From Sediminibacillus dalangtanensis (GTDB lineage: Bacteria; Bacillota; Bacilli; Bacillales; Amphibacillaceae): a stretch of DNA of 64,000 bases. Below are positions 32,299-60,302 of the stretch, in pieces. The position numbers and the translations under genes are program-made. Within the stretch, counting starts at the first letter, position 1; every line of letters begins with the position of its first letter. The stretch is taken from positions 1,798,001 to 1,862,000 of the forward strand of contig NZ_CP046956.1 of assembly GCF_017792025.1 (NCBI RefSeq), in the 5' to 3' direction. The notes under the pieces were generated by a model. It did no database searches. It had not been told where the DNA came from and saw only the letters and a program-made list of their open reading frames with translations.

Positions 32299-32478
32299 TC
32301 CAGCTCCAGCGCCTACCCCCTCGAGGTCTTAAGCCCACCCTCTGTGTGGCAAAAAGCGCCACGCCGAGGCTGTTCTTAAACTTGTCGGAGGCCCAAACGA
32401 TGTGGGTCATGCAGGCGTTGCCACAGGACGTGGCGGCTCTAGCCTGTCCTCCTTTAAACAGGCGCTTGCGCTTTTGTC
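32299..32478. repeat. dispersed palindromic repeat, copy A
   Basis: About 180 bases, more G+C rich than the surroundings. The left end carries CCAGCTCCAGCGCCTAC and the right end AGGCGCTTGCGCTTTT, giving short terminal inverted repeats (AGCGCCT/AGGCGCT). Inside, CCTC-TGT-GTGGC faces GCCAC-GCC-GAGG as a hairpin. The segment 32312-32355 recurs in inverted orientation at 44551-44593 with about four differences over 43 bases. No transposase is encoded, so it is a non-autonomous or structural repeat. Confidence 0.7.
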
Positions 32479-58812: not shown

Positions 58813-58826
58813 GGAACATTTATTCG
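58813..58826. promoter_or_regulatory. candidate LexA (DinR) box upstream of recA
   Basis: GGAACATTTATTCG resembles the Gram-positive SOS box CGAACATATGTTCG: the GAAC half is intact and the other half is ATTCG rather than GTTCG. It sits just before the -35 of the recA promoter, where a repressor could block polymerase. Confidence 0.5.
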
Positions 58827-58894: not shown

Positions 58895-59500
58895 TTGAGT
58901 GATCGAAAACAAGCCTTAGATATGGCGTTGAAACAGATAGAAAAACAATTTGGCAAGGGCTCTATTATGAAATTGGGTGAACGTGCGGAGCAAAAAGTTG
59001 CCACAGTTCCGAGTGGTTCGTTAGCCTTGGATGTAGCGCTTGGGGTGGGCGGCTATCCAAGAGGACGTGTAGTGGAGATTTACGGTCCTGAATCCTCTGG
59101 TAAGACAACCGTTTCCTTGCATGCTATCGCTGAAGCGCAGCGTCAGGGTGGACAAGCTGCATTTATTGATGCTGAACATGCATTAGATCCGGTATATGCC
59201 AGAAAGCTTGGTGTAAATGTCGATGAGTTGCTGCTATCTCAGCCCGATACAGGGGAACAAGCCCTGGAAATAGCCGAGGCGCTTGTCCGAAGTGGAGCTG
59301 TCGACATGGTGGTAATTGATTCGGTTGCAGCTCTCGTACCAAAAGCAGAGATTGAAGGGGAAATGGGAGATGCACACGTTGGTTTACAGGCACGCTTAAT
59401 GTCTCAGGCGCTGCGAAAGCTTTCGGGAGCCATTAACAAATCGAAGACGACAGCTATCTTTATCAATCAAATAAGGGAAAAAGTAGGAGTCATGTTTGGT
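58895..59500 (+). CDS. recA: RecA recombinase, 5' exon (split by group I intron)
   Basis: First 202 residues of RecA, the ATP-dependent strand-exchange protein that also triggers LexA self-cleavage. Walker [10 protein letters not shown] is at 64-72, followed by [10 protein letters not shown] and [27 protein letters not shown] start with AAGGAGGAAA. The frame runs 15 bases into the intron (GENAA) and stops at 59513-59515, leaving a truncated 206-residue product if RNA is not spliced. Exon end is placed at GGT|GAG because joining there to 59871 restores ...[14 protein letters not shown]..., the normal RecA sequence. The spliced protein would have 345 residues. Confidence 0.96.
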
Positions 59501-59870
59501 GAGAATGCTGCTTAAGTAAATGTGCGGGAAGCAGGCGGTTTAAATGCCGTCCATTCCGGACAATAAGCAGCTTGCCGTCTGGAAAAGAAATTTTCCAGAT
59601 TATCAATGCGGAATGAAGCGGGGATACTGAGAAGTAAATCCGAACCGAAGGCTGTAAGTAATAGTACAGTCAGGGGCAACGCATAGAAGGTGAACCTGTC
59701 GCAGGCAGAATATAATCCTTCCACGAGTCCGCATCATCTTAACGAGTGAGTCGAAGATGAAAAGATATGCTGAGCTGGGTCAGAAAAGACTGGCCGTATT
59801 CCTGTAAAGGATATGAGGGAAAGAAACCTCCAGAAACAAGAGATAAAAAGCTCTTGTGATAACAAAACTG
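59501..59870 (+). ncRNA. group I self-splicing intron in recA
   Basis: 370 bases without coding capacity between two halves of recA. Core pairings I can draw: P4 CGGA (59609-59612) with TCCG (59639-59642); P6 GGCTGTA (59650-59656) with TACAGTC (59665-59671); P7 GCATA (59681-59685) with TATGC (59767-59771); P8 TCATCTT (59734-59740) with AAGATGA (59754-59760). A 9-bp hairpin TCTGGAAAA/TTTTCCAGA lies at 59578-59599. The 5' exon ends in T and the intron ends in G, as group I splicing requires. AAGATATGC resembles the conserved S element. P1 and P3 are not assigned with confidence. No endonuclease gene is present. Family known in recA of the B. cereus group. Confidence 0.9.
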
Positions 59871-60302
59871 AATCCGGAAACGACTCCTGGCGGGCGTGCT
59901 TTGAAATTCTATTCATCTGTAAGACTCGAAGTGCGCAGAGCTGAAACGCTGAAACAAGGAAATGACATGGTTGGTAACAAAACAAAAATCAAAGTAGTAA
60001 AAAACAAGGTAGCTCCTCCGTTTAAACAAGCAGAAGTAGACATCATGTACGGAGAGGGTATATCCCGGGAAGGCGAACTATTGGACATTGGTTCCGATCT
60101 CGACATTGTACAAAAAAGCGGTGCCTGGTACTCCTATAACGAGGAACGTCTCGGACAAGGGCGGGAAAATGCCAAGCAGTTCCTGAAAGAGAATGAAGAT
60201 ATCCGTATGGAAATCTACAATACTATTCGCAGCCATTATGAAATGGATACTGCCCCGGAAACTTCCGAAGAAACGGAAAACCAGGAAACAATGGACATGT
60301 AA
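59871..60302 (+). CDS. recA: RecA recombinase, 3' exon
   Basis: Last 143 residues of RecA. It begins [25 protein letters not shown], the direct continuation of exon 1, and includes [30 protein letters not shown] and [19 protein letters not shown] before an acidic tail. Without splicing this frame could only start at a GTG at 59856 inside the intron, which has no ribosome site. Length with exon 1 is normal for a bacillus RecA. A terminator follows. Confidence 0.95.

Follow-up and report, generated by a model that had tools for sequence, protein, structure and literature searches.

The recA gene of Sediminibacillus dalangtanensis, at positions 58895-60302 of the 64,000-nucleotide stretch of DNA analysed here (the window), is interrupted by a 370-nucleotide insert (59501-59870), and we consider it highly probable (roughly 95%) that this insert is an IA-type group I intron without an endonuclease gene, which would excise itself from the recA transcript. 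A preliminary description of this DNA had arrived at the group I reading, and structure, splice sites and relatives support it, with covariation standing in for a match to an Rfam model. The kind is already known: Ko, Choi and Park reportedly described in 2002 a group I intron in recA of Bacillus anthracis and its splicing with labelled GTP, and the likeness to the present case, taken from the description of that intron, lies in the group I class and in the recA host gene of a member of the Bacillales. The additions made here are the genus-wide presence of the intron, a clade of introns missed by the Rfam model and the repeated interruption of recA.

A single recA gene in two parts

The proposal that the rejoined halves make a complete RecA is borne out by the 321-position RecA model TIGR02012, of which exon 1 covers positions 1-202 and exon 2 positions 201-320. 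The insert had also been said to contain stops, and the recA frame that opens with TTG at 58895 is indeed closed at 59513-59515, four codons inside the 370 nucleotides. The S. dalangtanensis genome (4,100,703 bases in one contig, 99.86% complete) has one place encoding exon 1 and one place bearing the intron. A second intact recA, named beforehand as a finding that would speak against the group I reading, was looked for in this one-contig genome and not found, which favours that reading. Both exon parts were present in all 80 named recA loci, with no gap at the junction in 79; the nearest RecA among the named records, that of Gracilibacillus dipsosauri, is 96% identical over exon 1 and lacks the insert (its genome, G028, belongs to genus g15, the window genome to genus g1). 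The exception among the 80 is Mycobacterium shimoidei (L078), with 1092 bases at the same junction, a multiple of three and perhaps an intein.

Table 1. The split recA gene and the features of its insert (window coordinates; all on the + strand)
Feature	Position	Details
recA exon 1	58895..59500	TTG start, 202 codons, 3' end ATG TTT GGT; TIGR02012, tblastn
Insert, read as group I intron	59501..59870	370 nt, without endonuclease gene; alignments and borders matching nrdJ introns
P1 5' strand	59497..59502	last four exon bases UGGU plus intron GA
P1 extension 5' strand	59507..59513	partner 59565-59571
In-frame stop TAA	59513..59515	after four intron codons
Internal guide sequence UUGCCG (P1 3' strand)	59572..59577	
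P2 hairpin	59578..59599	a single double change (G-C to A-U), seen in G001
P3 5' strand	59606..59612	partner 59728-59734
P4	59619-59622/59639-59642	structural alignment
P5	59625-59627/59634-59636	structural alignment
P6	59645-59646/59675-59676	RNAalifold placing preferred over a drawing with the 3' side two bases earlier
P6a	59650-59656/59665-59671	structural alignment
P7 5' strand GCAUA	59681..59685	partner 59766-59770; expected guanosine-binding helix; added by hand
P7.1	59686-59690/59717-59721	structural alignment
P7.2	59695-59698/59702-59705	inside P7.1; hand-drawn, genus sequences only
P3 3' strand	59728..59734	
P8	59735..59759	structural alignment
P7 3' strand UAUGC	59766..59770	follows J8/7 AAAAGA
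P9, P9.1 and P9.2 hairpins	59775..59857	
Last intron base G	59870	G in all 25 aligned introns
recA exon 2	59871..60302	NPETTPGGR... to stop; TIGR02012

Fold and borders of the insert

The core helices P3, P4, P6, P7 and P8 of a group I intron can all be placed in the insert, with P7 crossing P3. Complementary segments for P4, P6, P7 and P8, which the preliminary description had invoked without helix coordinates, do exist and are backed by the structural alignment. P7.1 and P7.2, the latter by hand drawing only, lie between P7 and P3, and this is the helix order of IA introns. The layout is phage-like and of IA type, and the insert is very likely a group I intron; IA is assigned without choosing among IA1, IA2 and IA3. 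P7.1 and P7.2 are named as subgroup traits in PMC3984707. A first guess for P7, CAGUCAG/CUGAGCUG, was dropped in favour of GCAUA/UAUGC, and a first guess for P4, CGG/CCG, in favour of the RNAalifold helices.

The borders can be compared with those of group I introns in nrdJ of Bacillales, which are 70-84% identical over parts to the recA intron and share its fold, although they differ from it in host gene, in their guide, GCCUCACG, and in having no P2. The joint between P4 and P5 reads GA/AA in the recA intron and AA/AA in most of the nrdJ relatives. In recA the 5' splice site lies behind U59500, which forms the U.G pair of P1; P1 reads UGGU/GCCG, with an identical 5' strand, in all five genus sequences. 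Against the group I reading stands that the guide has only four exon partners in recA, two of these pairs being U.G. The nrdJ introns follow an exon ending in UGUGGU and themselves end in UG, and their homologous P1 covaries: in the 45 of 48 loci with the junction pattern, which left the exon base facing the guide free, this base pair is G/C in 38, A/U in 6 and G/U in 1. All 25 aligned introns end in UG, and the recA junction, with GGU before the intron, UG at its end, AAU after it and UUGCCG as guide, obeys the nrdJ rule. We consider the recA borders supported because they agree with those in nrdJ, where the protein sequence settles the junctions, and the earlier placing of a U at the end of the upstream exon and a G at the end of the intron holds in the alignments at U59500 and G59870. 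An early in-frame stop is likewise common to both: it comes after four intron codons in all seven recA introns of the same kind (six TAA, one TGA) and after one to eight codons in 45 of the 45 nrdJ introns read. According to PMC3984707, such stops are viewed as stalling ribosomes while the intron folds.

Pairing and covariation

The insert stretch folds better than its dinucleotide shuffles (z = -5.1; 0/100 as good). Thirty compact introns were prepared (5 from recA, 25 from nrdJ). All except L009, L014, L019, L110 and L134 entered an alignment that runs from P3 as far as the 3' exon and has 25 members (5 and 20). On this alignment RNAalifold placed 47 pairs, in P3, P4/P5, P6, P7.1, P8, P9 and P9.2, to which the five pairs of P7 were added by hand, giving 52 scored pairs. 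Pairing is kept in 98.1% of the 1293 core cells of the 25 relatives, as against 82.2% in shuffles; double-sided changes occur in 28 of the 52 core pairs, and the covariation score is 0.451 against 0.141 in shuffles. No shuffle among 500 reached these values; 24 of the 500 did so for one of the five measures, the number of further pair types. Versions of the core structure slid along the alignment pair in 30-41% of cells. When two more recA introns were added, 97.8% of cells were paired, 29 pairs had double changes, and 0/500 shuffles reached any of the five measures. All five pairs of P7.1 covary, and the outer pair of P3 occurs as UA, CG, AU and GC. P7 is complementary in all 25 rows yet invariant, as is most of P3; since P7 never varies, covariation is silent on the catalytic helix itself, and the invariance of both is what would be expected of a core, not a proof of it.

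The Rfam model for group I introns

A match to the Rfam Intron_gpI model had been proposed as a check, its absence as grounds against the group I reading, and in this one respect the result goes against that reading: RF00028 gave no match in 59300-60100, at the gathering cut-off or at E ≤ 10, nor at the recA intron place of the five genus genomes, in which it matched elsewhere only, always below the cut-off (best E 0.139). We read this miss as a blind spot of the model because homologous stretches in nrdJ and in gyrA of phage AR9 are missed too. Twenty loci (4 recA, 15 nrdJ and L020) gave no match to any homologous intron at E ≤ 0.5, while six other introns in five of these nrdJ loci scored 62-87 bits. 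At E ≤ 1 there was no match in 11 loci including phage and plasmid relatives (AR9, phiR1-37, ZPAH34, a Pontibacillus plasmid, CBP1, three nrdJ loci, L020, L024 and L025). RF00028 serves to detect group I introns and does not define them. The five nrdJ loci with the further RF00028-matched group I introns are L007, L011, L013, L018 and L021, and in them these introns lie upstream of the recA-type one.

Conservation within the genus and alternative readings

The preliminary description had spoken of this strain only, a scope that proves too narrow: the intron is present in 5/5 sampled genomes of the genus, always at one and the same boundary between codons of recA, with lengths of 368-374 nucleotides, and the other four copies are 91-96% identical to that of the window. 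In the ten pairwise species comparisons, identity is 94.4% (2662/2820) for intron bases 89-370, compared with 84.9% for exon 1 overall, 46.8% (467/997) for its four-fold sites, 75.0% for intron bases 1-88 (P1 extension, guide and start of P2) and 66.7% for the spacer upstream of recA; the four species rank alike against the window copy on the intron core and on four-fold sites. With a core so much slower than silent sites, the intron is old and constrained; it is old in the genus, inherited together with recA. Four-fold identity is somewhat higher beside the intron: the 60 bases of exon 1 nearest to it give 49/80, against 38-52% in exon 1 bins, and the 60 nearest bases of exon 2 give 80/116, against 51-67% in exon 2 bins, so a short co-conversion tract is possible. 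In the drawn structure, one P6a cell is unpaired within the genus (A-G, in L004), and a hand-drawn helix, P9.1b, has three non-pairs in every genus row.

An in-frame stop and the lack of an Rfam match are also what one might see if recA were a pseudogene that holds a dead insertion. Such a reading would, however, leave the cell with no other recA that we could find, and it sits badly with exons that are conserved as protein in both halves in all five species even though single species pairs fall to 27-81% identity at the four-fold sites of exon 1, with an intron core conserved more than exon 1 itself, and with pairs of P2, P5 and P9.1 that are kept through double changes within the genus; we regard it as very improbable. 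Because recA of relatives is interrupted by group II introns, albeit at other sites, one might alternatively take the insert for a group II intron or its remnant. The group II models RF00029 and D1-D4 gave no match in 59300-60100 at E ≤ 10, the structure that covaries is that of a group I intron, and the 5' end reads GAGAAU instead of the group II consensus GUGYG, which together leave this reading hardly any probability.

Relatives in nrdJ, phages and plasmids

DNA-similar matches to the group I intron of the window were found in 24 of 159 family genomes, the five genus members included, and in 54 of 397 sampled order genomes, the window genome included. Outside the genus, 48 loci were read (19 from the family search and 29 from the order search), with gene names assigned by eye from translations, and 24 order genomes were taken as table rows only. 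In 45 of the 48 the intron follows NPCG of nrdJ, with the EQPLAP exon also seen in 41 of these; the other three lie in a primase-like gene (L020) and in two phage-like genes (L024 and L025). Several loci outside the genus have an open reading frame between the conserved parts, and some nrdJ introns carry an endonuclease-like frame, unlike the recA intron.

Among phage records 26 of 50,697 matched the recA intron, and among plasmid records 7 of 72,556. In gyrA of Bacillus phage AR9 and in the topoisomerase region of Yersinia phage phiR1-37 the core DNA is 70-75% similar, the host genes being those of phages; in phiR1-37 an annotated endonuclease coding sequence overlaps the edge of the match. 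The AR9 gyrA coding sequence is annotated as three joined pieces, and its span holds two intron-like stretches, one preceded by GGU as judged by eye. Surveys of Bacillus cereus group introns exist in print; in the literature searched we found no survey of recA introns in Bacillales and no text on the nrdJ/recA intron clade. PMC3984707 reports that recA and nrdE of Bacillus species can harbour group I introns. Introns in ribonucleotide reductase genes are common: PMC2795772 describes more than 100 of group I curated in RNRdb, and PMC3653736 reviews the cases from phages. PMC5312081 mentions one AR9 intron, in gene g189 and not in gyrA.

With most of its kin in nrdJ and others in phage genes, the recA intron may derive from an nrdJ- or phage-borne copy. 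The best tree covering recA introns of three families requires two changes, but a single clade is not rejected (p-AU = 0.443). The shared guide UUGCCGUC and P1 extension argue for one origin of the recA introns, while the tree and the P9 insert shared with the nearest nrdJ intron (L106) place the genus copy close to nrdJ.

Interruptions of recA in the family and order

A recA match was obtained in 157/159 family genomes and 397/397 order genomes. In the family, outside the genus, recA is split in G029 (L159), G039 (L158) and G126 (L157), in each case by an Rfam group II intron near codon 97, and G126 has a second group II intron near codon 205 with an open frame of 567 residues inside; G146, with its parts at contig ends, was left out of this count. 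For the order we screened for genomes whose best recA match was weaker than 1e-150, a cut set by eye that misses inserts near the gene ends. The 24 of 397 genomes that passed comprise the window genome, G126 and 22 that were re-examined, of which G357 has no recA worth the name and G354 has the parts on two contigs, and recA is split on one contig in 22/397, near codons 66, 97, 123 or 202-213.

Twenty split-recA stretches were inspected (G516 was left out), and among the loci inspected the splits are group I or group II introns. Introns of the same kind as that of the window, with the same site and guide, are present in two genomes of other families (L161 in G189 and L162 in G441; 297 and 429 nucleotides). 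Nine genomes (L163-L171) have another group I type one codon downstream, unlike the window intron in sequence; at E ≤ 0.1 RF00028 finds seven of them, none of which reaches its gathering score, and L169 and L170 were placed in this type by their similar ends. Group II introns interrupt recA in L172-L174 and L178-L180. At codon 66 (L175-L177) a BLAST match to the window intron was obtained in L177 only (2e-4), which L175 and L176 resemble by eye, and RF00028 gave no match in the three at E ≤ 0.1. L177 belongs to G441, so that recA of this one genome is interrupted twice, at codon 66 and at codon 202, each time by an insert that BLAST matches to the window intron. The recA intron of Geobacillus kaustophilus, described in PMC3522654, is likewise in the housekeeping recA of a member of the Bacillales but is a group II ribozyme.

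A possible course of splicing and its meaning

In the scheme that we propose, the intron would fold around P3-P8 in the recA transcript, free guanosine would be bound at P7, and cleavage would take place after U59500 at the U.G pair of P1; the exons would then be joined GGU to AAU, freeing an intron that ends at G59870. Ribosomes arriving before splicing would meet the stop after four intron codons. The two splicing steps and the need for guanosine are carried over from the intron family. Because the single recA copy is split and its frame is closed early, we infer that RecA would be made only after splicing.

Let us suppose, further, that the group I intron owes its retention to a gate that its splicing places on RecA synthesis and that works, say, by way of translation, magnesium or the supply of guanosine. 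The retention of an intron without endonuclease in 5/5 species, the stop at the same codon in 7/7 recA introns of the kind and the strong conservation of the core would fit such a gate, but a conserved intron would equally result if RecA were destroyed by every loss of splicing and the intron were seldom removed precisely, and early stops are found likewise in all 45 nrdJ relatives read; we consider a gate unlikely. Equally speculative, and in our view improbable, is a wider scenario in which self-splicing RNAs would have landed again and again in recA of Bacillales. In this genus a once-mobile intron, now without an endonuclease, would have been kept as a gate to RecA; translation would have to stop at the conserved early stop before the ribozyme could fold, and repair capacity would thereby be tied to the state of the cell.

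If the self-excision of the group I intron that we favour is true, a whole genus relies on a ribozyme for its central repair gene. Within one bacterial order, recA has been hit repeatedly by different introns. As the Rfam model misses this clade, which takes in group I introns of bacteria and phages, genes carrying such introns can be mistaken for broken ones.

Two minor observations concern the window outside the intron. On its - strand, at 32392-32458, lies a match to the Bacillaceae-1 RNA (RF01690; 58.9 bits). At 58814-58825, 5' of recA, we read by eye GAACATTTATTC, which resembles a damage-response operator of Bacillus.
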